Assembly (NCBI RefSeq): GCF_027938815.1
Contig: NZ_CP115913.1
Span: 1,832,001 to 1,896,000 of the forward strand
Length of the DNA: 64,000 nt
DNA from: Oceanirhabdus sp. W0125-5
Lineage (GTDB): Bacteria > Bacillota > Clostridia > Clostridiales > Clostridiaceae
Reading direction: 5' to 3'
Shown here: in pieces, positions 4,161 through 63,257 of the stretch
Position numbering within the stretch: position 1 is the first letter of the stretch
Layout: the number at the start of each line of letters is the position of its first letter
Made by a program: the position numbers and the translations under genes
Notes under the pieces: generated by a model
Told to the model about the DNA's origin: nothing
Seen by the model: the letters and a program-made list of their open reading frames with translations, nothing else
Database searches by the model: none

Positions 4161-4660
4161 AAAAAATAGTAAATAAATAAAAATAATAGGGAAAATGATA
4201 ATTTGAAAACTAAGTAAAATACAAAAAAAGATAAAAGGTGCCTAAAAATGACAAAAAATATTTTTTTAATAAATAAGCAATTATATTAAAAAAAAGAATG
4301 AAATACGAATTTAGATGAAAATGGAAATTTGTGTTGAAAAAAATCAAAATTAGGTACCTTTTTATGAATTAAGATTGTTAAGAGTTTAACAAAAGCAAGG
4401 TTTTAAAAATTTAAGAATAAATATCAAATGGTTTTATAGTATGTGCTGTGAGTGTATTATACGATTAAAATAAAGAATTCTCTTGAGAAGGTTCGTGTTT
4501 TGTTGTCGTAATTCATGTATAAATTTTAAAATGAATGCTATAGAAAAAATAAATTCAAAAATTGAAAAAAAAATGTAGAAAAAATTGTTACGATACTGTA
4601 TAATACGAATTGTAAAACAATTGAGACAACAATTGCACATGAAAAATAAAATGAATGTTA
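4161..4660. other. Non-coding AT-rich leader region before the glycine riboswitch
   Basis: No gene is visible. A long-range inverted repeat, AAAGGTGCCTAA (about 4215) against TTAGGTACCTTT (about 4348), brackets 120 bases. A good -10 hexamer TATAAT lies at 4599-4604 without a clear -35; it is the best candidate for the riboswitch promoter. ORFs on the minus strand here overlap the riboswitch and are not genes. Confidence 0.4.
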
Positions 4661-4665
4661 TGGAT

Positions 4666-4866
4666 GATATATGTGGGAGATAACCAGTGAAAGACTGGTA
4701 GCCGAAGGAACAAATGTAAGTTTTGCCGAACATACATGAAAATCTCAGGCAAAAGAACCACGTATTGACATATCTCTGGAAAGCTGTAAAACAGCACCGA
4801 AGGAGTAAATCTCTCAGGTACCAAGACAGGGCAAAAGGCAAATGATCTTTTGTAATGTCTTTTTTT
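4666..4866 (+). promoter_or_regulatory. Tandem glycine riboswitch with terminator
   Basis: Two aptamers in a row show the conserved glycine riboswitch pieces. Aptamer 1 has GTGGGAGA, AGCCGAAGGAACAAAT, ATCTCAGGCAAAAGAACC, closed by TATGTGG with CCACGTA. Aptamer 2 has ATCTCTGGA, CACCGAAGGAGTAAAT, CTCTCAGGTACCAAGAC. Directly after it, GACAGGGCAAAAG (4825-4837) can pair with CTTTTGTAATGTC (4847-4859) before seven or more T, an intrinsic terminator. Since GACAT at 4768 could instead pair with ATGTC at 4855-4859, glycine binding probably prevents termination (an ON switch). It sits 70 bases before grdX and should control the glycine reductase operon. The mechanism is inferred; the aptamer identity is well supported. 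Confidence 0.93.
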
Positions 4867-4937
4867 AATGCAAAAAAACATAAAAACATAGAATATAAGT
4901 CATAATAATATTTAAAAAAATTAAATGGGAGTTAAAA

Positions 4938-5315
4938 ATGATTGAAAAACTAATAATTGTAACAAATAACCCGTTGAGTTTTAAAAATTTTAAGAAAAGT
5001 CATGAAACTATCTATATTGAAGGGCATGTTAGGGAAGTATATAAAAAGGTGAGAGATATGATTCACTTAGGACATAGACTGTTAACACATCCTTTAATGA
5101 GTAGTATAAAACCAAATATGACACCATATAGAACTATAGTTATTTCTTATAATAAGGAAGCAAGATGTGATATGGAGTCATTAACGTTAATTGAAGGCAG
5201 TATTGCCACTTTGGAAAAGTTCTTAAGTATTAAGCCTATTCCAGAGCATAATGAAGCTGTGAAATATGATTTTCAAGTTATAGATTATGATTTAATTAAT
5301 CATGCATTGAATTAA
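4938..5315 (+). CDS. grdX: GrdX family protein
   Basis: A 125-residue protein of the GrdX family, found at the head of glycine reductase operons. Its biochemical role is not known. Visible features are an N-terminal IIVTNNPLSFKNF, GHRLLTHPLMSSIKPNMTPYRT, and LIEGSIATLEKF. A GGGAG ribosome site precedes the ATG. It is the first gene after the glycine riboswitch and is followed after 16 bases by trxB, so it is the first operon gene. The family assignment rests on motif and context. Confidence 0.88.
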   Translation: MIEKLIIVTNNPLSFKNFKKSHETIYIEGHVREVYKKVRDMIHLGHRLLTHPLMSSIKPNMTPYRTIVISYNKEARCDMESLTLIEGSIATLEKFLSIKPIPEHNEAVKYDFQVIDYDLINHALN

Positions 5316-5331
5316 AAAGGAGGCAAAAACC

Positions 5332-6252
5332 ATGTCACAAATTTTTGATACTATTATAATTGGTGGTGGACCAGCTGGATTAGCTGCTGCTCTATACGGT
5401 GGAAGAGCTAGAATGAAGACTTTAATCTTAGAAAGAGCTAAGTACGGCGGACAAGCAGCGACTACTGAGGAAATGGAAAACTACCCAGGAGCTGTTGAAG
5501 GTGGAACTAAAGAGCTTATCGAAAGAATGAGAAGCCAAGCAGAAGAGTTCGGAGCAGAATTTATTAAAGATGAAGTTGTTGATATGAAGCTTGAAGGTGA
5601 TGTTAAAACTTTAGTTGGAAGAAGTGGTGAATACCAAGGTAAAACTATCATAATTGCAACTGGAGCTAACCCAAGATTAGGTGGATTCACTAATGAGATT
5701 GAACTTAGAGGTAAGGGAATATCTTACTGTGCTACTTGTGACGCTGATTTCTTCACAGAGTTAGATGTTGCAGTTGTAGGTGGAGGAGATTCTGCATTAG
5801 ATGAAGCGTTATACTTAACTAAGTTCGCTGAAAAAGTAACTGTAATTCACAGAAGAGATGAGTTCAGAGCTAACAAAGCAGTTCAAGAGAGAGTATTCGC
5901 AAACGATAAGATAGAAGTTATTTGGGATACTGTTGTTGAAGAAGCTATTGATGATGATGGAATCCTTGGTGGATTAAAATTAAAGAATAAGAAAACTGGT
6001 GAAGAGTCTGAGTTAGACGTTCAAGGATGCTTCGTATTTGTTGGATTTGTTCCAAATTCAAAGTTATTCGAAGGAAAAGTTGAAATGAACGAAAAAGGAG
6101 AAATCCTATCAGATACTGAAATGAGAACTAACATCCCAGGAGTATTTGTTGCTGGTGACGTAAGAGAAAAGAGCTTAAGACAAGTAATAACTGCATGTGC
6201 AGATGGTGCAATTGCCGCTACTCAAGCAGAACATTATGTAGTTAGTCACTAA
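5332..6252 (+). CDS. trxB: NADPH-thioredoxin reductase of the glycine reductase system
   Basis: A 306-residue flavoprotein that moves electrons from NADPH through FAD and a redox disulfide to thioredoxin, which then reduces selenoprotein A of glycine reductase. The FAD site is IIGGGPAGLAAALYGGRA near residue 8; the active-site disulfide is YCATCDADFF near residue 135; the NADPH site is VVGGGDSALDEA near residue 152 with HRRDEFRA; the second FAD motif is GVFVAGDVREK. A canonical HRRxxxR motif argues for NADPH rather than ferredoxin. The AAGGAGG ribosome site is ideal. It is the second gene of the grd operon and directly precedes its partner thioredoxin. Confidence 0.95.
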   Translation: MSQIFDTIIIGGGPAGLAAALYGGRARMKTLILERAKYGGQAATTEEMENYPGAVEGGTKELIERMRSQAEEFGAEFIKDEVVDMKLEGDVKTLVGRSGEYQGKTIIIATGANPRLGGFTNEIELRGKGISYCATCDADFFTELDVAVVGGGDSALDEALYLTKFAEKVTVIHRRDEFRANKAVQERVFANDKIEVIWDTVVEEAIDDDGILGGLKLKNKKTGEESELDVQGCFVFVGFVPNSKLFEGKVEMNEKGEILSDTEMRTNIPGVFVAGDVREKSLRQVITACADGAIAATQAEHYVVSH

Positions 6253-39258: not shown

Positions 39259-39272
39259 ATTACATGTGGCAA

Positions 39273-39347
39273 GGCCCATTGGTCAAGCGGTTAAGACACC
39301 GCCCTTTCACGGCGGTAACAGGGGTTCGATTCCCCTATGGGTCACCA
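39273..39347 (+). tRNA. tRNA-Glu (TTC), cassette 1
   Basis: A 75-base cloverleaf with encoded CCA, anticodon TTC. First gene of a four-tRNA cassette present three times. Confidence 0.97.
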
Positions 39348-39352
39348 AATGT

Positions 39353-39428
39353 GGGAGCATAGCTCAGCTGGGAGAGCACCTGCCTTACAAGCAGGGGGTC
39401 ACAGGTTCGATCCCTGTTGTTCCCACCA
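39353..39428 (+). tRNA. tRNA-Val (TAC), cassette 1
   Basis: 76 bases, acceptor GGGAGCA/TGTTCCC, anticodon TAC, encoded CCA. Confidence 0.97.
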
Positions 39429-39448
39429 CATTTTTTATAAAACAATAT

Positions 39449-39525
39449 GGCCCAGTGGCTCAGTTGGTTAGAGTGCCGGCCTGTCACGCCGGAGGTCGAG
39501 GGTTCGAGTCCCTTCTGGGTCGCCA
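39449..39525 (+). tRNA. tRNA-Asp (GTC), cassette 1
   Basis: 77 bases, anticodon GTC, encoded CCA. Confidence 0.97.
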
Positions 39526-39530
39526 TATAT

Positions 39531-39606
39531 GCTGGCATGGCTCAATTGGTAGAGCAGCTGACTTGTAATCAGCAGGTTGTAGGTTCAAGTCCTATTGCCA
39601 GCTCCA
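39531..39606 (+). tRNA. tRNA-Thr (TGT), cassette 1
   Basis: 76 bases, anticodon TGT in the loop CTTGTAA, encoded CCA. Confidence 0.97.
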
Positions 39607-39623
39607 TTTTCAAAATTTAACAA

Positions 39624-39698
39624 GGCCCATTGGTCAAGCGGTTAAGACACCGCCCTTTCACGGCGGTAACAGGGGTTCGATTCCCCTATGGGTCACCA
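39624..39698 (+). tRNA. tRNA-Glu (TTC), cassette 2
   Basis: Identical to the first cassette copy, 351 bases downstream. Confidence 0.97.
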
Positions 39699-39703
39699 AA
39701 TGT

Positions 39704-39779
39704 GGGAGCATAGCTCAGCTGGGAGAGCACCTGCCTTACAAGCAGGGGGTCACAGGTTCGATCCCTGTTGTTCCCACCA
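39704..39779 (+). tRNA. tRNA-Val (TAC), cassette 2
   Basis: Identical to the first cassette copy. Confidence 0.97.
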
Positions 39780-39800
39780 CATTTTTTTATAAAACAATAT

Positions 39801-39877
39801 GGCCCAGTGGCTCAGTTGGTTAGAGTGCCGGCCTGTCACGCCGGAGGTCGAGGGTTCGAGTCCCTTCTGGGTCGCCA
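39801..39877 (+). tRNA. tRNA-Asp (GTC), cassette 2
   Basis: Identical to the first copy; the spacer before it is one T longer. Confidence 0.97.
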
Positions 39878-39882
39878 TATAT

Positions 39883-39958
39883 GCTGGCATGGCTCAATTG
39901 GTAGAGCAGCTGACTTGTAATCAGCAGGTTGTAGGTTCAAGTCCTATTGCCAGCTCCA
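39883..39958 (+). tRNA. tRNA-Thr (TGT), cassette 2
   Basis: Identical to the first cassette copy. Confidence 0.97.
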
Positions 39959-39975
39959 TTTTCAAAATTTAACAA

Positions 39976-40050
39976 GGCCCATTGGTCAAGCGGTTAAGAC
40001 ACCGCCCTTTCACGGCGGTAACAGGGGTTCGATTCCCCTATGGGTCACCA
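39976..40050 (+). tRNA. tRNA-Glu (TTC), cassette 3
   Basis: Identical to the first cassette copy, 352 bases after the second. Confidence 0.97.
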
Positions 40051-40055
40051 AATGT

Positions 40056-40131
40056 GGGAGCATAGCTCAGCTGGGAGAGCACCTGCCTTACAAGCAGGGG
40101 GTCACAGGTTCGATCCCTGTTGTTCCCACCA
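40056..40131 (+). tRNA. tRNA-Val (TAC), cassette 3
   Basis: Identical to the first cassette copy. Confidence 0.97.
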
Positions 40132-40152
40132 CATTTTTTTATAAAACAATAT

Positions 40153-40229
40153 GGCCCAGTGGCTCAGTTGGTTAGAGTGCCGGCCTGTCACGCCGGAGGT
40201 CAAGGGTTCGAGTCCCTTCTGGGTCGCCA
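40153..40229 (+). tRNA. tRNA-Asp (GTC), cassette 3, one base variant
   Basis: Differs from copies 1 and 2 by one base in the T-stem (GGTCAAGGG in place of GGTCGAGGG), which turns a G-T pair into A-T. Confidence 0.97.
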
Positions 40230-40234
40230 TGTAT

Positions 40235-40310
40235 GCTGGCATGGCTCAATTGGTAGAGCAGCTGACTTGTAATCAGCAGGTTGTAGGTTCAAGTCCTATT
40301 GCCAGCTCCA
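40235..40310 (+). tRNA. tRNA-Thr (TGT), cassette 3
   Basis: Identical to the first cassette copy; last gene of the cluster. Confidence 0.97.
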
Positions 40311-40312
40311 TA

Positions 40313-46572: not shown

Positions 46573-46649
46573 GCACCTATAGCTCAGCTGGATAGAGTTA
46601 CGGACTTCGAATCCGGGGGTCGCAGGTTCGAATCCTGTTAGGTGTACCA
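46573..46649 (+). tRNA. tRNA-Arg (TCG), integration target
   Basis: 77 bases, acceptor GCACCTA/TAGGTGT, anticodon TCG in the loop CTTCGAA, encoded CCA. The anticodon stem has an A27-G43 mismatch. The integrase of the adjacent element points at its 3' end, so its 3' half is the probable attachment core (attL). Confidence 0.95.
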
Positions 46650-46758: not shown

Positions 46759-47928
46759 CTAGACAAACAATCGGTTCAATTTCTCCACTGCTGTAATCCG
46801 CTCCTTAGGCATAACGTGGGTGTATATATTGGCTGTCATTGTTATGTCAGAATGTCCAAGCAATGTTTGTATTGTTTTGAGCGGTATTTTTGCTTCAAAC
46901 AATTTTGTTGCATATGTATGCCTGTAAGTATGGAATTTTCGGTAGGAAACTCCAGCTCTATTTAACAGTCTTTCATGTGCTCTAATTATGTTCCTTTGGT
47001 TGATGAAGTTGCCTGTTTGAGTACAGAAAACTAGATTCTTATTGGTATATGATGAACCTGCTTTTAACTTTTCTTCAAGCTGCATGGTCCTGTGGCGTTT
47101 TATAACAGGAATAAGGCTTGATGGTATTGGAACTGTTCTATTTGAACTTTTGGACTTTGGAGGAATAAGAACAAAAGTATGACTCTTCTTCATATCTTCA
47201 TCAAAAACTGGCTGCCTCTTCAGTGTCTTGTTAACATGTAGTTCCATTCTTTTAAGATCTATATCATCCCATGAAAGAGCTAGAAGTTCACCTTGTCTTA
47301 ATCCTGTGCCAAGGGCAAGAAGAATAAGGCACTCAAGTCTATCTTCTTTGAGAGTTTCCTTTACTAGTTTTATTTCATTTTCAGAGAAAACTTCAACACT
47401 TTCCTTTTTTAGCTCAGATCTGCCTGGGATAACTAGTTTTTTACTAGAGCAGGGATTTCTATTGATATAACCCTCATCAAGAGCATAATTTAAAAATGCC
47501 TTAAGTATCTTGTTGAGAGTTCTAATGGATGATGATGTTTTTCCGCTGCAGTAAATACGGTTGTAGTATCTCTGAATCTGTATGGATTTAAGTTCGCTTA
47601 GATTAACAAAATAAAGTTCACTGTTCTTTATGTAGTTTCGGTATACACCTTCATAACGTTCAAATGTTGAGGGTTTTATCCTATCGGAGACATACATAAT
47701 CTCATATAACCAAAGATGCATTAGCTCTCCAAGGGTAACGTTCTTATAATCCATTGGGGCTCCACTGTTGATCATATTCATGTATTCATCACGGAGTTTT
47801 TCTGCTTCTTTTTTACTCTCTGCATAAAAATCTTTTCTAATAAGTTTTCCTTCTGCAGTTCTACCTAGAGTAACAGTTAATCTATAATAGTTCTTTCCGT
47901 TTTTCTCACAATTAGTTTTGCGTGCCAT
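46759..47928 (-). CDS. int: Tyrosine recombinase / phage integrase
   Basis: A 389-residue site-specific recombinase. The N-terminal arm-binding part (NYYRLTVTLGRTAEGKLIRKDF) is followed by the SAM-like core-binding domain (residues about 65-165) and the catalytic domain with Arg in GTGLRQGELLAL, His-x-x-Arg in HTYRHTYATKL, LLGHSDITMT and the nucleophile Tyr in ANIYTHV. It should integrate and excise the element at the tRNA-Arg. Start after AAGGAGG on the minus strand. Its 5' end overlaps the small gene upstream by 17 bases. Confidence 0.95.
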   Translation of the reverse strand: MARKTNCEKNGKNYYRLTVTLGRTAEGKLIRKDFYAESKKEAEKLRDEYMNMINSGAPMDYKNVTLGELMHLWLYEIMYVSDRIKPSTFERYEGVYRNYIKNSELYFVNLSELKSIQIQRYYNRIYCSGKTSSSIRTLNKILKAFLNYALDEGYINRNPCSSKKLVIPGRSELKKESVEVFSENEIKLVKETLKEDRLECLILLALGTGLRQGELLALSWDDIDLKRMELHVNKTLKRQPVFDEDMKKSHTFVLIPPKSKSSNRTVPIPSSLIPVIKRHRTMQLEEKLKAGSSYTNKNLVFCTQTGNFINQRNIIRAHERLLNRAGVSYRKFHTYRHTYATKLFEAKIPLKTIQTLLGHSDITMTANIYTHVMPKERITAVEKLNRLFV

Positions 47929-49016: not shown

Positions 49017-49119
49017 ATTACACAAAATGTCAGCTACAAGTTTACAAAATGGATTATTTTAGTGTCATATAGATGAATATAGTTTGATACAGAATGTTGA
49101 ATTAAGGGGGAGTTTACTG

Positions 49120-49368
49120 ATGGAATTTACATTACAGGAATTAAAAGATAGTGTAAGAGAGGTTATCGAAGGGATTGAAGATAAAGCAACCCTTACAATA
49201 CAGGAGTGTAATAAGTACACAGGGATAGGTCGGGATAAACTTATGGAACTAGCACACAGCAAGGAATCGGATTTTCCATGCTTCAGAGTAGGGAACAGGT
49301 TCCTGATAAACAAGGAGATGCTAATTGCATGGCTGAAGAAGGTAACAGTAGAGGGGAGAGTTCTATAG
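49120..49368 (+). CDS. Excisionase-like helix-turn-helix protein
   Basis: An 82-residue protein with a MerR/excisionase-type winged helix: LTIQECNKYTGIGRDKLMELA, then FPCFRVGNRFLINKEMLIAWL. This matches helix-turn-helix domain 17 excisionases. ATG at 49120 has AGGGGG upstream; the longer ORF start at 49084 has no site. It could drive excision together with the integrase. Confidence 0.8.
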   Translation: MEFTLQELKDSVREVIEGIEDKATLTIQECNKYTGIGRDKLMELAHSKESDFPCFRVGNRFLINKEMLIAWLKKVTVEGRVL

Positions 49369-49398
49369 TTTTATAAAAAGATAATGGGGGTAAGTATT

Positions 49399-50103
49399 AT
49401 GATTGAAGCTATTAATGTAATTGAGAATAAAGGAATGTTGGTTGTTAGCAGCAGAGAAGTTGCAGAGAATTTTGAGAAGAGACATGATCATATCATCAGG
49501 GATATTGAGAACCTGAAAAATGGGTTTCCCCAAAATTGGGGAGACCTGGAAAAGTACTTTATAGAAGGTCAGTACCAGAATCAGCAGAACAAACAGTTCT
49601 ATAAAGAATACTTTCTAACAAGGGATGGGTTCACCCTTTTAGTTATGGGATTCACCGGTGCAAAGGCAGTAACATGGAAGATGAAGTATATCGATGCCTT
49701 TAATAAGATGGAAGAGGAACTTAGGGATCCATTTAAACATCTAAGTACGGAACTGAAAGCTATATTTGTAATAGATAAGAAAAGTCAGGAGATTGAGGGC
49801 AGGGTTGAGGTACTAGAGAACAGGATGACCATAGATTATGGACAGCAGCTGGTTCTTCAGGAACTTGCAAAGGAGAATGCAGTTAGGAGTATGAATGGTA
49901 TAGAAAGTAATGCATATAAAAACAGAAAGCTCAGGAGGAAGGTGTTCTCCAAAGTGTGGAAGGATTACAAGGATTATTTCGAAATGAACAGCTATAGGAA
50001 CACAGCCAAGAAGGATTTTGATAAGGCGAAGGAGTATCTCAAGGGTTGGAAACCACAGGGGAAACTTCTGAGGGATATAGAACAGTGCATGAGTGTAATA
50101 TAG
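49399..50103 (+). CDS. Rha-family phage regulator with ORF6C domain
   Basis: A 234-residue protein. The N-terminal Rha domain reads VSSREVAENFEKRHDHIIRDIENL and continues YFLTRDGFTLLVMGFTGAKAVTWKMKYIDAFNKME. The C-terminal ORF6C-type domain holds GQQLVLQELAKENAV and KVFSKVWKDYKDYFEMNSYR. Such proteins act as phage antirepressors or lytic regulators. ATG at 49399 lies eight bases after GGGGGT; the ATG at 49384 overlaps that site. Confidence 0.88.
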   Translation: MIEAINVIENKGMLVVSSREVAENFEKRHDHIIRDIENLKNGFPQNWGDLEKYFIEGQYQNQQNKQFYKEYFLTRDGFTLLVMGFTGAKAVTWKMKYIDAFNKMEEELRDPFKHLSTELKAIFVIDKKSQEIEGRVEVLENRMTIDYGQQLVLQELAKENAVRSMNGIESNAYKNRKLRRKVFSKVWKDYKDYFEMNSYRNTAKKDFDKAKEYLKGWKPQGKLLRDIEQCMSVI

Positions 50104-50121
50104 AGGATAGGAGATGGGAAC

Positions 50122-50769
50122 ATGGCTACCTATAGGGTTATTAAGGATAGAGAAAATCCCTATGTGATGATGAACAAACATGGAATCTATGACAGTAGGC
50201 TGAGCTGGAAAGCCAAAGGTCTCCTAATGTATTTCATGAGCAGGCCTGATAATTGGGAATTCCATGAGATTGAGATCAAGAAACATGCTAGAGACGGAAG
50301 GGATGGGACAAGGGCTGGGATAAAAGAACTGATTGAGAAGAAATATATAAAGAGGCATAGGGAGAGGGACACGAAAGGAAAGTTCGTTGGTTGGATGTAT
50401 GAAGTTTTTGAGGTTCCTTTTGATATTCTCAGTATGGGAGAAGATTCACAAGACAGCGCTCCTGAAGATAAAGCATCAGAAGAGAATGGTAAAAAAGAAG
50501 AAAAGTGCAAGTTGGAAAAACCACCTTTGAAGAATCCAATACCGGAAAAATCGAAGTCGGAAAATACCACACTAATAATTAATGAATCTAATAATAATGA
50601 TTTTATTAATAAAAGAATTTCAGTAAATAATAATGAAGATATAGGCACGGAGAAAATCAGAAGCGAAGGAGAGGGGAATCATGGGGATAATAGAAACTGT
50701 GGAGAGGATAAGAGAACAATCTCTGGAAAATCAGAAAAGACAGCAACCAGTGAAGATGACATCATATAG
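50122..50769 (+). CDS. DnaD-like replication initiation protein
   Basis: A 215-residue protein. The first 90 residues form a winged helix (YDSRLSWKAKGLLMYFMSRPDNWEFHEIEIKKHARDGRDGTRAGIKELIEKKYIKR) typical of phage replisome organisers. The rest is charged and low-complexity, Asn-, Glu- and Lys-rich. It probably binds the element's origin. Its last 89 bases overlap the next gene in another frame. The family name rests on the N-terminus and the DnaC neighbour. Confidence 0.8.
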   Translation: MATYRVIKDRENPYVMMNKHGIYDSRLSWKAKGLLMYFMSRPDNWEFHEIEIKKHARDGRDGTRAGIKELIEKKYIKRHRERDTKGKFVGWMYEVFEVPFDILSMGEDSQDSAPEDKASEENGKKEEKCKLEKPPLKNPIPEKSKSENTTLIINESNNNDFINKRISVNNNEDIGTEKIRSEGEGNHGDNRNCGEDKRTISGKSEKTATSEDDII

Positions 50770-51439
50770 ATGTAGTAAATGTCGCGACACAACCTGGATT
50801 ATTGTTGATGATAAAGCCAGAAGATGCCAGTGTTATAAGATAGACAAAACAAAGAAGCTTTGGGAAGCATCAGGAGTAAGTATAGAACAGCAGGATAAGA
50901 CATTTAAATCATATATACCTTATAGTTATGATACTAAAAGGGCAAGAGAATGTGGGATTGAGTATTTTAGAAACTATAATGAACGGAAGAATACAAGATA
51001 TAACTCAATAGCTTTTTTAGGACAAGTTGGCAGCGGAAAAACACATCTCAGTATTGCCCTTGCTGTAAACTTTCTTAACAGAGAAATTCCTGTTGTATAT
51101 ATGCCTTTCAGAGATACCATGATGAATATAAAGATGAATATTCTGGACCATGAGTATTATCAAAAGAGCTTAGAGAAATATCAGAAAGCAGAGATTCTTC
51201 TAATTGATGATCTCTATAAGGGTAAGATAACAGCCAGTGATCTTAACATTATGTTTGAGATAATAAATTATAGATACATCAACCAGATGCCTATTATAAT
51301 AAGTTCAGAGAAGGGAATAGATGATATATTAAAGATGGATGAAGCAATAGGCAGCAGAATTTATGAGATGTGTAAGGGCATGATTGTAGAGATAAAGGGG
51401 AAGGAGAATAATTATAGAATTAGAGGATGTAGAAACTGA
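50681..51439 (+). CDS. DnaC/DnaI-type helicase loader ATPase
   Basis: A 252-residue AAA+ protein that should load the host replicative helicase on the element's origin. An N-terminal zinc-binding pattern (YRCSKCRDT...RRCQCYK) is followed by Walker A LGQVGSGKTHLS near residue 115, Walker B ILLIDDLYKG near 172 and sensor I PIIISSEKG. AGGAGAGGGG precedes the ATG. It overlaps the DnaD-like gene, so the two are coupled. Confidence 0.9.
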   Translation: MGIIETVERIREQSLENQKRQQPVKMTSYRCSKCRDTTWIIVDDKARRCQCYKIDKTKKLWEASGVSIEQQDKTFKSYIPYSYDTKRARECGIEYFRNYNERKNTRYNSIAFLGQVGSGKTHLSIALAVNFLNREIPVVYMPFRDTMMNIKMNILDHEYYQKSLEKYQKAEILLIDDLYKGKITASDLNIMFEIINYRYINQMPIIISSEKGIDDILKMDEAIGSRIYEMCKGMIVEIKGKENNYRIRGCRN

Positions 51440-51490: not shown

Positions 51491-52429
51491 TTGATTATTA
51501 AGTCTAAATTTTTTTATATGAAATTTTCAATAATGTATCGAATCTAATTTAAGAAACAGAACTGAAGATATTGAAAAGTAAAGGTTTATAATATACTTCT
51601 ATTAATCTTATCCCAAAATAAATAAAAAAATGAAAGTTTATAAAGGAAATTGTATATAATATATGAAAAAATTGAAACAAGTAACAATATTAAGTATAAT
51701 TAATTAGATATAACTTTGAATAATTTTAAATAGTTCTATTTACATATTTGTATGTGTTTTAATAGGTATAATAAATTTTGATATTGTGATTAAAATGTCT
51801 ATAATGGAAAGTTGAGATTAGTAATAAAGTAGTAAAGATTATGAGTATATTGTTTTTAAGTACGCTATAAAAACAACTTAATATATAAACTAATGGTTAA
51901 GAGTAAGAAAAGATTCTTAAATCAACCATATGTTAATGAAATACGAATTGGGTTCAAGAAAAAAAGTGGTTGGTGAAATTGATTATTAGTAATTATAAAT
52001 GTTCATATCCTTATAAAGTCAATTATTCATTGAGGTTAGTTATGAATGTTTATGAGAAGAAAGTAAGAAATATGGTTGTTGATGACATAGTACTTAAGTA
52101 TTTGGTAATTGGAAAAAACAGACAAGGTTATCGTTAGGATGAACTCATCTGTATATAAGACTACATTCTTTAACGTGTATTTTGATTTGATAGATTCCTA
52201 TTGTACCATCGAATATAGACCAAAAATCGTAGAGTTATTTGGTAGGTATGGAATAAATAAAGGCTAGAATTATAAAAATGTAATGCTGTATTAAAGGTTA
52301 ACTATAGTAATAACCTGATTATAGAAGGTTTCTCTTTCATAAAGAAAAATATCCGATAAATCTTATAGATAAAAACACAGACAAGACTATTTAATATAAA
52401 ATTTTGTGAATAAAGAAGGGATTTTAACA
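51491..52429. other. Gene-free AT-rich stretch before the FRG gene
   Basis: About 940 bases with no convincing gene. A 32-codon ORF from 52042 to 52137 is too short to call. The rest is AT-rich with stops in all frames. It may hold the element's origin or decayed genes, but no iterated sites are clear by eye. Confidence 0.5.
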
Positions 52430-53398
52430 ATGAAAATTGAGAATATAAAGTATAGTAGTTTTTTTGATTTTTTTGAAGATATCTTGCCAACAGGAAAACT
52501 GAGTGATAAATTGAATGGATTTGTTTTTAGAGGTGAGCCAACTAATAAATATAAACTATTGCCATCGGCTTTACGTTTGGAAAATAAAGATAGACTGTGG
52601 AGAGGGAATAAGCCGATAGATGATCAATCAGAATGGGAATCATGGCAAATTCATGCAGAGTATATACTGTTGAGAGATTTCTACAAAATAGCCAACAATA
52701 ATGGTTTGAAAGTGCCATATATAGAATCGATTAGAGATAATTTTGTGGATTGTTTTCCAACTGAAAAATTAATGCAAATGAGTAATTATAAATGGATATC
52801 AAAAGAAATTGAAGAATTAGCAGCATTAGCACAGCATTATGGAATATTAACTAGATTGTTAGATTGGACGTGGGATATTAATATAGCTTTCTATTTTGCA
52901 GCTATTGGGGCAATTAAACAGTGCGTGAAAAATGAGTTTATAAATAATGATACAATTGTAATTTGGGCATTAAATGCCCAGCATATACAGTTTTTACAGC
53001 CAACAGTGGATATGATTCCTCTGAAATTTGTTGTCCCATCGTATTATAGTAATCCAAATTTAAATGCTCAAAAAGGGGTGCTTTCATATTGGGAAATTGA
53101 AATGAATAGTAATATAGAAGAAATAAGGGGAATGTACTCTGGCAAAGGTCCGAAGCTTGTAGATAGAACACCTTTGGATGAGGTACTTGCTAAATATTGT
53201 TCTGATAATAAAGATGATAATATTACTTTGCTATATAAATTTGAATTCCCCAAAAGTGACTGTATTAAAGTATTTGAAAGTATTAGTAAATTTGGATATG
53301 AGGCTTCAAGAATATTTCCAGGTTATAGTGGAGTTACAAGACAAATTGAAGAACAAGTTTTGTTAAATGAATTACAAAAAAGTAGAAAGATTGTTTAA
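52430..53398 (+). CDS. FRG domain-containing protein
   Basis: A 322-residue protein with the FRG domain: GFVFRGEPTNKYKLLPSALR near residue 32 and LAQHYGILTRLLDWTWDINIAFYFA near residue 135, the two conserved blocks with Phe-Arg-Gly and Leu-Leu-Asp-Trp-Thr. FRG proteins are often found beside phage-defence genes; their activity is not settled. ATG at 52430 follows GAAGGGA; the GTG at 52406 lacks a site. It is the first cargo gene, with over 500 free bases on each side, so it is probably expressed alone. Confidence 0.85.
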   Translation: MKIENIKYSSFFDFFEDILPTGKLSDKLNGFVFRGEPTNKYKLLPSALRLENKDRLWRGNKPIDDQSEWESWQIHAEYILLRDFYKIANNNGLKVPYIESIRDNFVDCFPTEKLMQMSNYKWISKEIEELAALAQHYGILTRLLDWTWDINIAFYFAAIGAIKQCVKNEFINNDTIVIWALNAQHIQFLQPTVDMIPLKFVVPSYYSNPNLNAQKGVLSYWEIEMNSNIEEIRGMYSGKGPKLVDRTPLDEVLAKYCSDNKDDNITLLYKFEFPKSDCIKVFESISKFGYEASRIFPGYSGVTRQIEEQVLLNELQKSRKIV

Positions 53399-53951
53399 AT
53401 GAACTTTTTAATAAAATTCATATATAAATTTATGTTTATAACTTAACATTATCCATATACCCATTAGGCTAATAATCTGAAGTTGGTTATAGGGAATAAT
53501 ATGTATTAGGAGAAGTTCAAATGTGAGTTTATTAGTTAAAAATGTGAAACATATAAATAAATTAAATAATTCTAGAGGATTAAATATTCTAATATTTTAC
53601 ATGATATGAGCTGCATATTGCAAATTAGTAAAAAGGACGTTTTTGTAGCTTTCTTCTTGCTAAATGCTGTTTATTATAGTTATCTTAATCAACATCAATT
53701 TGATCGTGACAATAAGGTTCTTTAGTGGAATTATTGAGGGAGTAATGAAAAGTATTTGATATTTGTAAATGTATTTATGATAGCCATTTCTAGATTTAAA
53801 TAAACATTTAGGCATAAACTTATGCTGTTAGTACCTTTCATTACTTTGGGATATCTATTATTTATATAGAGTATCGTAGATAGTATAATTTAGAAGTGAT
53901 GAAAATTTGATAAAGTTTTGAGAGTTATTTTTAAATAGTAAAGGGAGTTTG
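53399..53951. other. Gene-free stretch between cargo genes
   Basis: About 550 AT-rich bases without a gene, recognisable repeat or strong terminator. It contains the promoter region of the following nuclease-like gene but no near-consensus boxes. Confidence 0.5.
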
Positions 53952-56306
53952 ATGAAAATGGATAATATAAAAAAACATGAAGAATTTATGAAGTTAATAG
54001 ACGAAACGTCAAGAGTATTAGATGAAAAGCTTATAAATGGTGAGATTACCCAGTATGAATATGATGAATTAAAATCATTAGACATTGAATACGATGAAGA
54101 AAAAGACCCAATTGAGCTATTTAAAGAGCTTTATACAGAAAGAAAACCAATAAAATGTAGTAAATTGTTACTTGCTATTTATGACAAACATAAGAATAGC
54201 TTTAGAAAAGCTGTCTTATTAAGTGAGTGTTTCCCAGATCCTTTGGGTTTCATGTATAATCAAGAAATCCATGGATTCACTATATTAATTATTGAAAGGG
54301 CTTTTAAGTTATCAATTTCAAAAGAGTATCCAGAGGAATTTATAAGCGAATTGCGACAGTTATATTTAGCTTTCATGTTTTTTAATCATAATAATTTAAG
54401 AAATACTGAAAAACTTGATAAGTGTGAATTTATGGATTTCTCATTGTCAGAGCAGATAAGGATGATAGGTATTTTTCTTCAAGACCAAAATAGACTTGTA
54501 CAACAGTTGAAGGAAAATGAGATAAAAAGACAGGAGTTTTTTACTGGAATGGAATCTGCTATTTCAAACAGAATCCCTGATAGGAATCCAAATATGTTAG
54601 TTTCATTTGAAGATAATCTTGAGGGGCTACTAGAGGCTTTTGATATTATAATACGATATCTGTATTTTAAGAAGAGTAAAGATTACAAAAAGAAAACAAT
54701 ACCAGAACATGGAGACATAACTCATATTAAAATTCCTTCATTAGAGTTAATAATACATTTATCAATTCAAAGAAATCTTCTAATAAAAACATGGGAAAAG
54801 TTTAAGTATTCACAATGGAATGTAGGTCTGCAGAATAATGATGGGGAAGAAACTTATATATTTATGCCAAAGTTAGAGGAGGAATATAGAGAACATATTA
54901 TTGGAGCCAATAGAAGGCAATACTTTTTAATGAGTAATCTATTTAAGAATAAATATATTGAAAGTGAATTAAAAAACAGAGAGATAATTTCTAAAATTTC
55001 TGGTGAAATCAATAAGGATGAAATTAAAACATTGTTTTCAATCAATAAGGAAGATTATTTTTGTGCAATAAAAACCTATCAATCAATGATAAATGCATAC
55101 AAATTAAATATGCATCCATACTACTTAGAGCTAAATCTAGATGGAGTGATGATTGAAGATACCTTTAGAGTATTTGAGTTATTGCATGTTTTAGCGGAAT
55201 GTTACAAACAAGCAATTTACAAGGATTTTGATCAAGAAGATAACTCTTGGTATAAATACTTATGTCCAATTATTCCTATTGAATATTTCACTGAAAGTTT
55301 AACCAATTATTACGGTTTCACTAAAGAATATTCTTTAAAACTAATTAATTGTTTTACTTTCAAGAAAGGAATCCAAGGGGAAAGTGATGTCTTTTCTAGA
55401 CCGTTAATATTAGTAAATTCAGCTAATATAATTTTCTGCCCCATCCTAATGCAACAGATGAATTTAGAAAGAATAATTGAAATGCTGCTTAGTAATTTCA
55501 AAGTAAATATCGCCCGAATTGGAACTGATTTTGAGAATCGTATCAAATTAATTTTATCTTATGTTAATGGAATAAAAGTCAACACAAGCAAAATTGAGTT
55601 TTTTGCATCAGATGGAAGGGATATTGAATTCGATTTTATTGGAACATTTGATGATCATTTATTACTGTGGGAATTTAAAGCAATGACAGTACCCTATAGT
55701 GCAAAAAAACATTTAGAGTGTAAGAAAACTATTATGGAAGGTGTAGACCAGATTGAAAGAAGAAGTAGAATAATAAAAACCGATTGGAAAAAGATAAAAG
55801 AATTGGCGAACATCGAATTGCCCGAGGAACCTTTTAGTGATGACAAAATAATTAAGTTAGTTGGTACTAATATTTTTGATTTCACAACATTGGTTTACGG
55901 AGATGATATTAGAATAGTAGATGAGTCTACTCTATTAAAATTTTTTGTTAATCCAGAAGTGAAAGTGATGAGTATTAATGATAAAAAGGTATTAAATTCA
56001 AAAAAATTGTGGAAAAGTTCAGTACCAACCACAAATGAGTTTAAACAATATTTAGAAAATCCAATAACAACATCACCATATAACGAGTGTATAGAAGCTT
56101 TTCCTAAAGCTTTTGATGTTTTTGAAGATGATTATCCTTTTGCTATAATCGATCAGATATTGACTAAGGATCCTTATGGTCAAGAAATTGAAAGTGTTAT
56201 TAAATTTAAAAAAGAAACTTTGAATAATAAAAAGCATAAAAGAAAAAAGTCTTCAAATAAAAAAACAAAAAGTCCAAAGAAAAAACGAAAGAAAAAAAAG
56301 AAATAG
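53952..56306 (+). CDS. Large protein with PD-(D/E)XK nuclease-like motif and lysine-rich tail
   Basis: A 784-residue protein I cannot assign to a named family. Residues 1-500 look helical and have no clear motif. A nuclease-like block follows: IGTDFENRI with Glu528, DIEFDFIGTFDD with Asp561, and LWEFKAM with Glu574 and Lys576. This E-D-ExK series with beta-strand-like surroundings fits the PD-(D/E)XK fold. The last 30 residues are almost all Lys, Arg and Ser, a likely nucleic-acid-binding tail. ATG at 53952 lies after AAGGGAG; the TTG at 53949 overlaps the spacer. A terminator follows directly. Confidence 0.75.
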   Translation: MKMDNIKKHEEFMKLIDETSRVLDEKLINGEITQYEYDELKSLDIEYDEEKDPIELFKELYTERKPIKCSKLLLAIYDKHKNSFRKAVLLSECFPDPLGFMYNQEIHGFTILIIERAFKLSISKEYPEEFISELRQLYLAFMFFNHNNLRNTEKLDKCEFMDFSLSEQIRMIGIFLQDQNRLVQQLKENEIKRQEFFTGMESAISNRIPDRNPNMLVSFEDNLEGLLEAFDIIIRYLYFKKSKDYKKKTIPEHGDITHIKIPSLELIIHLSIQRNLLIKTWEKFKYSQWNVGLQNNDGEETYIFMPKLEEEYREHIIGANRRQYFLMSNLFKNKYIESELKNREIISKISGEINKDEIKTLFSINKEDYFCAIKTYQSMINAYKLNMHPYYLELNLDGVMIEDTFRVFELLHVLAECYKQAIYKDFDQEDNSWYKYLCPIIPIEYFTESLTNYYGFTKEYSLKLINCFTFKKGIQGESDVFSRPLILVNSANIIFCPILMQQMNLERIIEMLLSNFKVNIARIGTDFENRIKLILSYVNGIKVNTSKIEFFASDGRDIEFDFIGTFDDHLLLWEFKAMTVPYSAKKHLECKKTIMEGVDQIERRSRIIKTDWKKIKELANIELPEEPFSDDKIIKLVGTNIFDFTTLVYGDDIRIVDESTLLKFFVNPEVKVMSINDKKVLNSKKLWKSSVPTTNEFKQYLENPITTSPYNECIEAFPKAFDVFEDDYPFAIIDQILTKDPYGQEIESVIKFKKETLNNKKHKRKKSSNKKTKSPKKKRKKKKK

Positions 56307-56318
56307 TTTTTGTACCTT

Positions 56319-56341
56319 GCCTCATCAAGTGAGGCTTTTTC
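56319..56341 (+). terminator. Terminator after the nuclease-like gene
   Basis: GCCTCA and TGAGGC pair around TCAAG, followed by TTTTT. Confidence 0.88.
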
Positions 56342-56587: not shown

Positions 56588-57259
56588 TTGAAATCTTTAA
56601 TTATGGAGAATAGGTGTAAAGAACGGTGGTACCCAACGGCAATAGATAGATATAGAACATATATCAAGCTAGATATGACAATTGACGGAAGTGAACAACT
56701 TAGAAATAACATAGCATACAACTTACAATACTTAGAATATATTCAAAAACAGCAAAATGAATTGAACTTATCATCAGTTATATATGTAATGTTGTGTAAA
56801 TCATATATTATCTCAGGCATGGGAATAATAGAGGGATTATTCAGCAATCTTTTGAAATCTAAAGGTCTATGGAATTCGACTGTTTGGGAGAGTAAGAGGA
56901 GAATAAAATCAAACGAAAGTGTAATTGATGGAAAAAAAATTAAGATTGAAACTGAAATATTTGAGAAAGTTGATGCTTATGAAATGAGAATGGATTTGGA
57001 TTCTATGATTAAAAAGATTGAATCTAAGAAACTATTATCAATAGAACATAAAAATTTTCCAATTATAAAGAAATTACGAGGTTTACGTAATAGAGTACAT
57101 TTACAACAGGCCAATAATAGATTTGATACAGATTATCATAACTTTAGTTATGAAGAAAAAAATGAAATGGGAGAAATTTTATACACTATTTTAACGGATG
57201 AGATTTTTTGTACAATGCCACAATATCCAGAAATATTTGAGTTTTTAAAAAATAAATAA
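56588..57259 (+). CDS. HEPN-like protein of unknown function
   Basis: A 223-residue, mostly helical protein. Near its end KKLRGLRNRVHLQQ resembles the HEPN ribonuclease motif, with Arg167, Asn168 and His171; but the usual R-x4-6-H spacing is R-x3-H here (or R164-x6-H171), so activity is uncertain. Start TTG 56588, about ten bases after AAAGGAG; an ATG at 56603 is possible. It lies between the nuclease-like gene and the NACHT gene. Family identity is tentative. Confidence 0.6.
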   Translation: MKSLIMENRCKERWYPTAIDRYRTYIKLDMTIDGSEQLRNNIAYNLQYLEYIQKQQNELNLSSVIYVMLCKSYIISGMGIIEGLFSNLLKSKGLWNSTVWESKRRIKSNESVIDGKKIKIETEIFEKVDAYEMRMDLDSMIKKIESKKLLSIEHKNFPIIKKLRGLRNRVHLQQANNRFDTDYHNFSYEEKNEMGEILYTILTDEIFCTMPQYPEIFEFLKNK

Positions 57260-58788: not shown

Positions 58789-61700
58789 ATGATCTTAGCT
58801 GAAATGCTAGTTAAATATATAGGGGTTCCAATTTCAAAAGCATTACTAAATATTTGGTTAAAAGATAATCCAATATTAAATAGTACTAGTAATAATATAA
58901 TGGATATATTAAAAACTAAAACAGATGATTTTATATCTGCTAGAAAAGTCTCACGCGAGTTTGAAAATATTGCGGATAAAGTTGGTGCTAGCTTAATACC
59001 TGTATTTGAGGTTTATAGGTTAGAGCAAATATCTATGGAGGCAGTTGCAATAGCAGTATCAAATACAATATTTGATGCGCATATATCTGCTAAACTATTA
59101 GCAGAATTATCATATAATCATAAAAGACTTAATGATTATATTTTAAGTGTAAAGAAAAAAAGAGATAGGGATTTTTCTGAACCTGAAAGAGAATTGTACA
59201 AACGATCAATTGACTTATCAGCACAATATATAATTGATCTTGCTCCACAACTACCAGATTACACTGCTAATAATTTTAATGAAATATTAAAGAGATTTGA
59301 CAATTTAATGGAACTTGTTCGACAAGTTGCAGATGATCTTGAATCAATTACAACTAAAACCTATAGTGAAAATAATAATAGTAAATTTGCGGATTTTGAA
59401 AGAGATTATCGAACTGCTATAATAAGAAAGTTTGATAGACTAAATTTGTTTGGTGTTGATTTGTCTAAAATACATAAGAGATACCAACTTTCAGTAGCAT
59501 ATGTTTCATTAGATGTTACTACAGAAGAAGAGTATTTTGAAACTGATAAGCATAGAATGAGTGTAGAAAATGCGTTGTGTGATGAACAATTTATTGCAAT
59601 AATTGGAGAAGCAGGTACAGGGAAAACAACATTATTAAAATGGTTAGCTGTTAATTCAGCAAGAGAATGTTTACAATCTTATATATCAGATTGGAAAGAA
59701 ACTATTCCGTTTATTATAGAACTTAGGCGATATACAGATAAGCTTCCAACACCTGAAGATTTTATAAAACAAGTAACTCCTGAGATTTCACAAAAAATAC
59801 CTGATGATTGGATTTCTAAAGTATTAGAAAGTGGAAAAGCATTATTACTAGTTGATGGCTTAGATGAAGTACCATTATCAAAGCGAGAAAAGGTGGTAGA
59901 GTGGTTAGAGGATTATATTTATACTTATAATTTGCGTGTTGTTTTTACTTCTCGACCAGCTGCAAAAGAATGGCAGGAAGTGGTTAATAGATTAGATTTT
60001 AAAAAATTAAATCTTACTCCAATGTCTTTCGAGAATATACAAATGTTTATACAACATTGGCATACTGCAGTTTTAGGTGAACAAGAAAAGGAACAAAAAT
60101 ATAAAATTCAATTATTAGTACAGAAACTTTTATATAAAATTCAAAATAGCAAACCATTAATGAGATTATCAACTAATCCATTATTATGTGCGATGATATG
60201 TTCGTTACATTATGAAAGAAATATGCAATTACCTTCTGATAGAAGCGAATTGTATGAGGCATGTTGTTCTATGCTACTTGAGCGTAGAGATGCTGAACGT
60301 GAAATAGCTGTAGATTCAATTTTTAATCTTACATATAAACAAAAAAGAATTTTACTTGATGACATAGCTTATTGGATGCTAAGAAATGGAAAGTCAAGTG
60401 TATCAAAAGATGAAGCAATTGAAAGAATGAATTCAAAAATAAAAAATATGTCTGAGAATATATGTGAATATGGAGCTGAAAAAATACTAAATAATTTTAT
60501 TGAAAGAAGTGGCATAATACGTGAACCAACTTGTGGTGTTATTGATTTTATCCATCGTACTTTCCAAGAATATATGGCTGCTAGTGCAGCAAGTTCTGAA
60601 GGGGATTGGGGATTGTTGGCTAGGAATTCACAAGATGATCAATGGCATGAAACAATAATATTAGCAGCAGGTTTTGCAAATCTTAAATATGCCGATCAAC
60701 TACTAACATGTTTGCTTGAAGCAGGAAGAAAAGAAAGTAATATGAATCATGATTTACTTGCAATGTGCTGTCTAGAAACAATAGCTGAATCATCTTATGA
60801 AATAAGAGAAGAAGTTAAAAAGCGAATAAATTATTCAATTCCACCCAAGATTTTAGCTCAGTGTAAATCATTAGCTGCAACAGGTGATCTAGCGGTACCA
60901 TTTCTTGCGTATAAAAAGGATTATAATGAAGAAGAGGTATTAAGTTGTATTAAAACTTTAGGAATGATTACTTCTACAGCAGCTTTGGCACAGTTATCTT
61001 CGTATTTTTCAATAAATATGAAGCCAAAAGTATTTGATGCAATTAAGTATATTCTTGCAATTGTAACGCCAAAAGAAGTTTTTTTAAGTAAGTTGTATAA
61101 ATCATTGTTAGAATATATTGAGAATAATATAGAAAATAAAAAATTGGAGTTAGATGGAGTTATTATCCAAGCCATATCTCATTCATCTTCCGAAGAATTA
61201 AATAATCTGTTTTCTTCAGAAATTAATAGTTTAACTATAACTGAATGTAAAGAACAATCTTTGAACATATTATCTTATTTTAGTGATTTAAGAATGTTAG
61301 ATATAGAGGGGAATATATATAGTTTAGAAGAATTAACAAAATTTGATTCTTTACAATTACTTAGATTAAAAAATAACGGAAAACAATGGGCAGAATTAGA
61401 TCATTTTAATTATTTAAAGGCTCTTAAGTCATTAATAATTATATCTGAAAATAATGATAGTTTACCGAATTTCAGAATGTTAGAATCTTTAAATAAATTA
61501 CGAAAACTAGTTTTAATTTCTATTAATGGTCCAATGATAGACGCGTCGATATTTGAAGAAATCTCTTTTTTAAATAAAATTGAACATTTGCATATTGGAA
61601 GTACAGACTTGCTTGATTTTAATTTTGCTCCGCTATCAGAGTTAAGAAATCTTAAGGTATTAGAGCTTTCAATTCGAGCAGAGTACATTTCATCCAATAT

Positions 61701-61863
61701 TATAACACTGGAAGTGTTAGAAAATTTACAAGAAATTATAATTAATACTGATTTACATGATGAAAATCTCGAAAACTTTATTCAAAATGTAGATTTTTGT
61801 GTTCCGAATTGTAAAGTTAAGTATAAAATTGATTCTTTATTTAATGATATTAACAATATTTAA
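58789..61863 (+). CDS. NACHT NTPase with leucine-rich C-terminus (bacterial NLR-like)
   Basis: A 1024-residue STAND ATPase. Residues 1-250 are helical (an N-terminal effector or adaptor like the NNH regions of bacterial NACHT proteins). The NACHT domain has Walker A IIGEAGTGKTTLLKW (Gly273 to Thr281), Walker B LLLVDGLDEVP (Asp356 on) and VVFTSRP near 387, then a winged-helix part with RLSTNPLLCAMICSLHYER and FIHRTFQEYMAASAA. Residues about 820-1010 are leucine-rich strands such as LRMLDIEGNIYSLEEL and LRNLKVLELSI, a sensor-type LRR. Bacterial NACHT proteins defend against phage; the trigger and effector here are unknown. TTAGGAGGG precedes the ATG. Confidence 0.9.
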   Translation: MILAEMLVKYIGVPISKALLNIWLKDNPILNSTSNNIMDILKTKTDDFISARKVSREFENIADKVGASLIPVFEVYRLEQISMEAVAIAVSNTIFDAHISAKLLAELSYNHKRLNDYILSVKKKRDRDFSEPERELYKRSIDLSAQYIIDLAPQLPDYTANNFNEILKRFDNLMELVRQVADDLESITTKTYSENNNSKFADFERDYRTAIIRKFDRLNLFGVDLSKIHKRYQLSVAYVSLDVTTEEEYFETDKHRMSVENALCDEQFIAIIGEAGTGKTTLLKWLAVNSARECLQSYISDWKETIPFIIELRRYTDKLPTPEDFIKQVTPEISQKIPDDWISKVLESGKALLLVDGLDEVPLSKREKVVEWLEDYIYTYNLRVVFTSRPAAKEWQEVVNRLDFKKLNLTPMSFENIQMFIQHWHTAVLGEQEKEQKYKIQLLVQKLLYKIQNSKPLMRLSTNPLLCAMICSLHYERNMQLPSDRSELYEACCSMLLERRDAEREIAVDSIFNLTYKQKRILLDDIAYWMLRNGKSSVSKDEAIERMNSKIKNMSENICEYGAEKILNNFIERSGIIREPTCGVIDFIHRTFQEYMAASAASSEGDWGLLARNSQDDQWHETIILAAGFANLKYADQLLTCLLEAGRKESNMNHDLLAMCCLETIAESSYEIREEVKKRINYSIPPKILAQCKSLAATGDLAVPFLAYKKDYNEEEVLSCIKTLGMITSTAALAQLSSYFSINMKPKVFDAIKYILAIVTPKEVFLSKLYKSLLEYIENNIENKKLELDGVIIQAISHSSSEELNNLFSSEINSLTITECKEQSLNILSYFSDLRMLDIEGNIYSLEELTKFDSLQLLRLKNNGKQWAELDHFNYLKALKSLIIISENNDSLPNFRMLESLNKLRKLVLISINGPMIDASIFEEISFLNKIEHLHIGSTDLLDFNFAPLSELRNLKVLELSIRAEYISSNIITLEVLENLQEIIINTDLHDENLENFIQNVDFCVPNCKVKYKIDSLFNDINNI

Positions 61864-62546: not shown

Positions 62547-63257
62547 CTAATCATCTCTGACAATTTGAAATAAATACGTATTGTAGTTGAGGATTATTTT
62601 TGTTAGCACTAGAATTTCCTCTTCGCCTGAAAAACTATCATCTAAGCAGCAGATTTCCCTAAAATGTTTTATAGAGCTTCTTGTTTTTGGACCAAGTATT
62701 CCGTCCGTAGCAAGGGGCTTATTTTCATAATCAGGTATCTTTAATTTGTTGAGGTTAATCTGGAGGATTAAAATAGGGTTAGCGTTTTTAATTTCTTCAG
62801 TAGTTTTTACAGGGTCATATTTGAAAAGTTCATTTTCTTCAATGATACTGATAAGCTTCTTTGGATACTGAGGATCAGTACAGTAACCACCTCTATAAAG
62901 TTCATTGCATGCGGTTTTATAATTACCAGCTGAAACCACAGGATCATATCTCCTTAAAGAAGTCAATAGATTTCCATAATCATTAAAGCTCTCAGAATAA
63001 TTCTTATACTTTCTAAAAAGACATATCTTTGGAGTTTTAACTCCATCAATCCACTCATATGTATGAATCTCATTGAAATCATAACCGCAGTTTCTGGTCC
63101 ATTTTATTCCGAAGATGTTGTTACCGGAGCAGTGACGTAGCCATCCAGTCTCAAGGATTGCTTGGGCAATACATACTGATGGAAGAAGATTAAACTTCTT
63201 CTGAACCTCTTCAGCATATGGAAGAAGCGTTTCTATAATTTTTGGTTTGTTTAACAT
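62547..63257 (-). CDS. Endolysin-type N-acetylglucosaminidase
   Basis: A 236-residue cell-wall hydrolase. The glucosaminidase (LYZ2/FlgJ-like) domain covers residues about 10-150: LPSVCIAQAILETGWLRHCSGNNIFGIKW has the catalytic Glu, and NDYGNLLTSLRRY and ELYRGGYCTDPQYPKKL follow. The C-terminal part (PLATDGILGPKTRSSIKHF) is a peptidoglycan-binding repeat. No signal peptide, as in phage endolysins that use a holin. AAGGCAGGTG precedes the ATG. Its strand is opposite to the cargo genes. Confidence 0.9.
   Translation of the reverse strand: MLNKPKIIETLLPYAEEVQKKFNLLPSVCIAQAILETGWLRHCSGNNIFGIKWTRNCGYDFNEIHTYEWIDGVKTPKICLFRKYKNYSESFNDYGNLLTSLRRYDPVVSAGNYKTACNELYRGGYCTDPQYPKKLISIIEENELFKYDPVKTTEEIKNANPILILQINLNKLKIPDYENKPLATDGILGPKTRSSIKHFREICCLDDSFSGEEEILVLTKIILNYNTYLFQIVRDD

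Follow-up and report, generated by a model that had tools for sequence, protein, structure and literature searches.

A gene of 784 codons in the genome of Oceanirhabdus sp. W0125-5 probably encodes a stand-alone PD-(D/E)XK nuclease, metal-dependent by prediction, which belongs to an unnamed NERD-like family and is carried by mobile elements as anti-phage (or anti-plasmid) cargo. This reading was reached from sequence comparisons and structure models of the protein encoded in the window, that is, the whole stretch of 64,000 nucleotides analysed here, and of its relatives in several phyla.

The nuclease gene lies in an element integrated at tRNA-Arg

We recovered the open reading frame with the coordinates and the length claimed in the first-pass annotation, intact on the forward strand and ending in a stop codon (Table 1). 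A TTG start at 53949 would give a protein of 785 amino acids, and the ATG at 53958, at which the Anaerobacterium relative begins, is an equally possible start. An intrinsic terminator begins 13 bases past the stop codon; because of this terminator of its own and of the gap of about 550 bp from the end of the upstream gene, the nuclease gene is probably monocistronic.

The gene is part of an element of about 30 kb that is integrated at tRNA-Arg. The left end repeat of the element is the 3' end of the tRNA gene, and the right repeat was found outside the window, at genome position 1908687 (window-equivalent 76687), about 30.08 kb from the left one. The element continues past the end of the window, where genes for a Schlafen-group-3 helicase (PDC-S41), an HNH mREase_IV-like protein and an MBL protein add to those listed in Table 1.

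Table 1. Features of the nuclease gene and of the element that carries it (window coordinates; residue numbers refer to the 784-residue protein).
Feature	Position	Strand	Basis
3' end of tRNA-Arg, left end repeat of the element	46611..46649	+	Repeat matched downstream
Tyrosine integrase of the element, adjoining tRNA-Arg	46759..47928	-	Sequence
Element core genes: Xis-like, Rha/ORF6C, DnaC/IstB-like ATPase	49084..51439	+	
FRG-domain protein, candidate defence family PDC-S15, upstream neighbour	52406..53398	+	
Promoter-like TTTATA-17-TATAAT	53861..53889	+	Consensus match alone; site count not above shuffles
Ribosome-binding-like GGGAG	53943..53947	+	Sequence
PD-(D/E)XK (NERD-like) nuclease gene, 784 aa	53952..56306	+	ORF and relatives
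N-terminal region, residues 1-452, putative sensor/regulatory half	53952..55307	+	Mostly helical in low-confidence model; no known family
SHOCT-like helical motif, residues 22-41, sub-threshold	54015..54074	+	Pfam PF09851, E 0.03
Family-specific lead-in to core, residues 453-523; F470, D479 and P484 invariant	55308..55520	+	Alignments
Nuclease core, residues 524-690	55521..56021	+	Domain model, Foldseek, profile comparison
E528 (core helix 1), invariant	55533..55535	+	Alignment
D561 (metal-binding Asp by prediction), invariant	55632..55634	+	Alignment
E574-x-K576 (ExK motif), invariant	55671..55679	+	Alignment
Q600 (14/15) and R603 (15/15), helix after ExK strand	55749..55760	+	15-sequence alignment
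Lys-rich tail, residues 748-784	56193..56303	+	SEC-C motif at this place in L004, L005 and L006
Intrinsic terminator GCCTCATCAAGTGAGGC-TTTTT	56319..56340	+	Directly 3' of nuclease gene
223-aa ORF, no family, downstream neighbour	56588..57259	+	
NNH1-NACHT-LRR (STAND) protein	58789..61863	+	

Several other features of the element and its surroundings were recorded. The 223-aa ORF contains RNRVH, close to a HEPN-type motif but inexact. The NNH1-NACHT protein is an NLR-like protein of 1024 aa with an LRR-like C-terminus and a weak match to the antiphage protein EruA, and a glucosaminidase-family lysin gene lies inside the element as well (62547-63257, reverse strand). Past the end of the window (L021 9978-14310, genome 1903978-1908310), an MBL-fold protein matched the LmuA, RTasMBL and Avs1a models; its gene is followed after 8 bp by that of a 1113-aa protein with a trypsin-like N-terminus and a P-loop, and by sequence the pair is a candidate Avs1- or Lamassu-like system. 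Next to the right repeat lies the 26-residue C-terminal end of an integrase, with 96% identity to the element's own (L021 14687-14924), which points to a second related element arranged in tandem, now or in the past. Just past this repeat, a ThsB-like TIR protein is encoded (L021 15332-16201; PADLOC E 9e-63), and no ThsA gene was noticed close to it. On the other side of the element, the window holds a Glu-Val-Asp-Thr tRNA cassette in three tandem copies (39270-40311; 352-bp unit, 99% match).

The catalytic residues of a PD-(D/E)XK nuclease are invariant in distant relatives

The first-pass annotation had assigned Glu528, Asp561, Glu574 and Lys576 to the catalytic series of restriction-like nucleases, and all four were found exactly at these positions. 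They are unchanged in six close relatives (28-80% identity) and also in 11 sequences from several phyla. In the C-terminal region of a 15-sequence alignment that spans Clostridia, Bacilli, Fusobacteriota and Pseudomonadota, the only invariant columns are F470, D479, P484, G524, E528, D561, E574, K576, R603 and D657, so that the conservation of the four residues is strict across very distant members. The chance that four random residues would all fall in this invariant set is 1.6e-8, or 2.6e-7 when only D, E and K are drawn, both values being simple counts that ignore that residues of the D/E/K type are favoured in any enzyme.

The fold was predicted with AlphaFold2 from seven sequences for residues 453-713. 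The first 73 residues of this domain model are unreliable, and pLDDT is about 84-92 for the greater part of residues 523-600. The modelled elements are a helix (526-536), strands through 569-576, a second helix (584-610) and a further strand (633-639), an order that matches that of the PD-(D/E)XK core. E528 was placed in the first helix and D561 between two strands; the strand that comes after carries E574 and K576, and Q600 and R603 lie in the second helix. A full-length model from three close sequences was discarded (mean pLDDT of 40.6).

When the domain model was compared with the PDB by Foldseek, the best matches were nearly all PD-(D/E)XK enzymes, headed by Shedu SduA (8ps5 and 8ps4); the top match, 8ps5_A, had an E of 2.2e-3 and a probability of 0.98, with a TM-score of 0.35 for a query that includes the 73 poorly modelled residues. 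Later matches were Bax1, the small subunit of BspD6I (R.BspD6I2), AF1548, Can2, the R2 endonuclease, XisH and AddAB. With a best E of about 2e-3 and low TM-scores, this list supports the fold and not the belonging to one family.

Thus, the structure prediction gave a core of the type proposed at first reading and no confident fold of another type, and the nuclease reading is supported together by the invariant residues, the topology of the model, the Foldseek list and the profile match to NERD described below. We regard the PD-(D/E)XK nuclease fold of this protein, as predicted from sequence and model, as almost certain. That it might instead be an inactive remnant, or a chance resemblance in which the PD-(D/E)XK-like residues form no active site, would agree with the poor full-length model and with the lack of a Pfam nuclease match for the window protein, but it is highly improbable given the strict conservation of the four residues in 15 distant sequences, the intact ORFs in every member and the dominance of active PD-(D/E)XK nucleases among the fold matches.

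NERD and YraN-type domains are nearest to the core by sequence

In profile-profile comparisons with hhalign, the 15-sequence core matched a profile of 11 NERD loci with an E of 3.7e-4 and a profile of YraN-type loci with an E of 2.3e-4, the catalytic columns being in register in both cases (GE...D...ExK in the former, the D-ExK strands in the latter); reversed or unrelated profiles used as decoys gave E values of 0.23 or worse. The comparison with Shedu was negative (E of 0.14), in a weak test with two Shedu sequences. Pfam NERD (PF08378) was matched by 7 of 11 members, all below the gathering cut-off of 22.1 bits (the best, P0005, reached 18.7 bits), and RefSeq names the E. coli prophage relative (WP_126633472.1) a NERD domain-containing protein. 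The window protein itself gave no NERD match at E<=1 and no nuclease match of any kind in Pfam, and no match in PADLOC-DB 2.0.0. Among distant members, the generic PADLOC CARF_PDDEXK models matched the core of two (E 1e-4 to 1e-3), in addition to one weak PDC-M29B match and a weak RusA-like PHROG match. A PDB sequence search with A2 returned nothing beyond chance matches to cGMP-kinase.

NERD and YraN-type domains are the nearest to the family by sequence, and it differs from each known group. It shares with NERD the order of the catalytic residues and the in-register profile match, but its members score under the Pfam threshold, its core lacks a fused helicase or kinase, and it has the F470/D479/P484 lead-in and a large N-terminal half of its own. 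YraN (UPF0102) and XisH, which resemble the core through the profile match over the D-ExK strands and through the fold list, respectively, are proteins of about 120-130 aa that lack the N-terminal half, and YraN is a housekeeping chromosomal protein. Shedu (SduA, DUF4263/PF14082), the best match among solved structures, is likewise a single gene with an N-terminal regulatory part (putative here) and a C-terminal PD-(D/E)XK core; however, its N-terminus is unrelated, neither PF14082 nor the PADLOC SduA model matched any member, and PF14082 (SduA_C/DUF4263) had no match in the genome of the window. CARF-PDDEXK proteins (Can2/Card1) are similar in the core of distant members and in the presence of Can2 in the fold list, whereas no CARF domain was found in the family and no CRISPR type III locus was seen nearby.

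The N-terminal half diverges between branches

The first 500 or so residues had been described as matching nothing, and in our searches of Pfam, NCBIfam, PHROGs, PADLOC and the PDB no family covered the first 450 residues beyond a weak SHOCT-like motif. This motif (residues 16-41 at its widest) had its best E, 6e-4, in the L003 relative, below the Pfam cut-off. Between 283 and 452 residues precede the core in all members. The N-terminal half is conserved inside the Bacillota branch; at this depth, no relationship between its Bacillota and Pseudomonadota versions was detectable. This arrangement recalls, without proving it, a single constant core fitted with different sensors, a scheme that has been used to classify Shedu (PMC12137116).

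A lysine-rich tail takes the place of a SEC-C motif

The final 37 residues, noted at first reading as a tail of mostly Lys/Arg/Ser, comprise 19 Lys and 2 Arg. The tails of the relatives of 79% and 69% identity have 14 K and 4 R of 33 residues and 11 K and 3 R of 29 residues, respectively, and since these two nearest relatives keep a similar tail, it is no oddity of one genome. At the same position, more distant Bacillota relatives (L004, L005 and L006) have a SEC-C zinc motif that scores above the Pfam cut-off, whereas the Cys-x-Cys...CC zinc motif is absent from the C-termini of the window, L002 and L003 proteins. In a tree of the core domain, the Lys-tail proteins group together in a single supported clade (97/98) beside the SEC-C-bearing relatives, and the simplest reading of this adjacency is that the Lys tail replaced SEC-C once. 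The idea that the tail is a decayed SEC-C motif was rejected: its scores were no better than those of shuffled tails, a likeness at the level of composition alone.

SEC-C is known from SecA, where it contacts the ribosome and SecB. From the conservation of the tail and the SEC-C motif at the same position in relatives, we infer that the tail may bind nucleic acid, as the first-pass annotation had suggested. A zinc SEC-C motif and a Lys/Arg tail at one place would be a simple case of two different tethers for one job.

These C-termini also bear on the substrate. The SEC-C motif of the relatives, the very basic tail of the window protein and the CARF-PDDEXK and Can2-type nucleases among the matches, which cut RNA or DNA, would all suit an RNA- or ribosome-directed nuclease that acts by abortive infection, arresting the growth of infected cells, instead of restricting DNA. 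We consider this unlikely, as DNA nucleases make up most of the top fold matches, and DNA is the presumed target of both NERD and YraN. For the proposed enzyme, DNA is the likelier substrate and RNA the less probable one, given that most of the fold relatives are DNA-cutting enzymes.

Members are rare and carried by unrelated mobile elements

The closest relatives were found on GTDB contigs of Anaerobacterium chartisolvens (79% identity) and of an uncultured Clostridia bacterium (69%), followed by L006 of the same class (42-43%) and by plasmid-borne relatives in the Bacilli Cytobacillus kochii (34%) and Lysinibacillus capsici (28%). A search with the full L004 protein returned hundreds of matches through SEC-C alone, which were discarded, and later queries were trimmed. 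The trimmed Lysinibacillus query yielded members on plasmids of Agrobacterium, Erwinia and Klebsiella michiganensis, the trimmed window protein a member in Fusobacterium vincentii (a weak match, confirmed by alignment), and the Agrobacterium protein a member on an Exiguobacterium plasmid; further members were found on IMG/VR contigs and in three E. coli genomes.

The family is rare, being present in 3 of 5426 E. coli genomes, and in one of 148 genomes of relatives and one of 398 genomes of the phylum, in both cases the window's own genome. With three members as queries, no relatives were found among INPHARED phage records. Our literature search found no paper linking SEC-C with NERD, none describing this nuclease family, and no family member with a tested function.

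Most copies whose context could be read are carried by plasmids, prophages or integrated elements. The neighbouring genes change from locus to locus, with no conserved partner gene. An RHH gene downstream in the L004 and L006 relatives was rejected as a partner, the two RHH genes being unrelated. At L003, a 553-aa protein with a weak DUF4209 match is encoded 39 bp upstream of the nuclease gene (4216-5877) and is a possible local partner; an IetS-like protease and a PIN-like protein are encoded nearby.

Distant relatives in E. coli EC-JS426 (L062) and in two IMG/VR P2-like prophages (L057 and L060) are located, in all three, between the tail-fibre-assembly and sheath genes, two of them inverted and one co-directional. 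We take this interval to be the place of the fun/Z locus in P2. Fun/Z is an abortive-infection defence system (PMC8594841), and defence genes are reported to abound in P2-like prophages (PMC9122126; PMC9519451). The likeness to Fun/Z and other cargo defence genes of P2 prophages is one of location, through the interval shared with the distant relatives, and the gene of the window lies on another kind of element.

PD-(D/E)XK proteins such as YraN, XisH and RusA-like resolvases act in DNA processing, and this family might likewise serve the mobile element itself, in the resolution of recombination intermediates, the control of excision or replication. Such a role would fit the preference for mobile elements, the YraN-type profile match, as good as that of NERD, the XisH excision factors among the fold matches and the weak RusA-like match. 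Nevertheless, we hold it to be quite improbable: the carriers are unrelated (P2-like, lambdoid, phage-plasmid, Bacilli plasmids and the tRNA-Arg element) and most elements of these kinds do not have the gene, the P2-like prophages carry it among tail genes, sometimes inverted, as cargo, and the tRNA-Arg element comes with an integrase and an Xis of its own.

A putative single-gene defence nuclease

The context of the family is of the defence type, with defence-type neighbours and prophage cargo sites. Since the window's gene has defence-type neighbours on a mobile element and its distant E. coli cousins occupy a prophage accessory-gene site, protection against phage is its probable function; as neighbours differ at every locus, this role rests on the kind of neighbourhood and not on a conserved operon. 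In the proposed mechanism, the N-terminal half (about 450 residues, fast-diverging between branches) would recognise a trigger or substrate specific to phage or damage, upon which the C-terminal core would cut nucleic acid, with E528, D561 and E574 holding the metal and K576 acting as general base. The basic tail, or SEC-C in relatives, would keep the enzyme bound to nucleic acid or to a nucleoprotein such as the ribosome, and the benefit to the host would be the exclusion of phages or plasmids. Such a design would be Shedu-like, with one core and diverse N-terminal regulators.

We propose tentatively, as a possibility somewhat short of probable, that the family is a single-gene anti-phage system not previously described, in which a NERD-like core is combined with lineage-specific N-terminal sensors and interchangeable tethers (poly-lysine or SEC-C), and which has spread through several phyla on mobile elements of unrelated kinds, settling in P2-like prophages between the tail-fibre and sheath genes. 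The family is missed by Pfam, where it falls under the NERD cut-off, and by PADLOC; stand-alone defence-type nucleases as such are already known, and it is no new category. If the proposed role is true, it would add one more stand-alone nuclease defence family beyond current profile libraries, and its E. coli members, being in prophages, would be easy to test.
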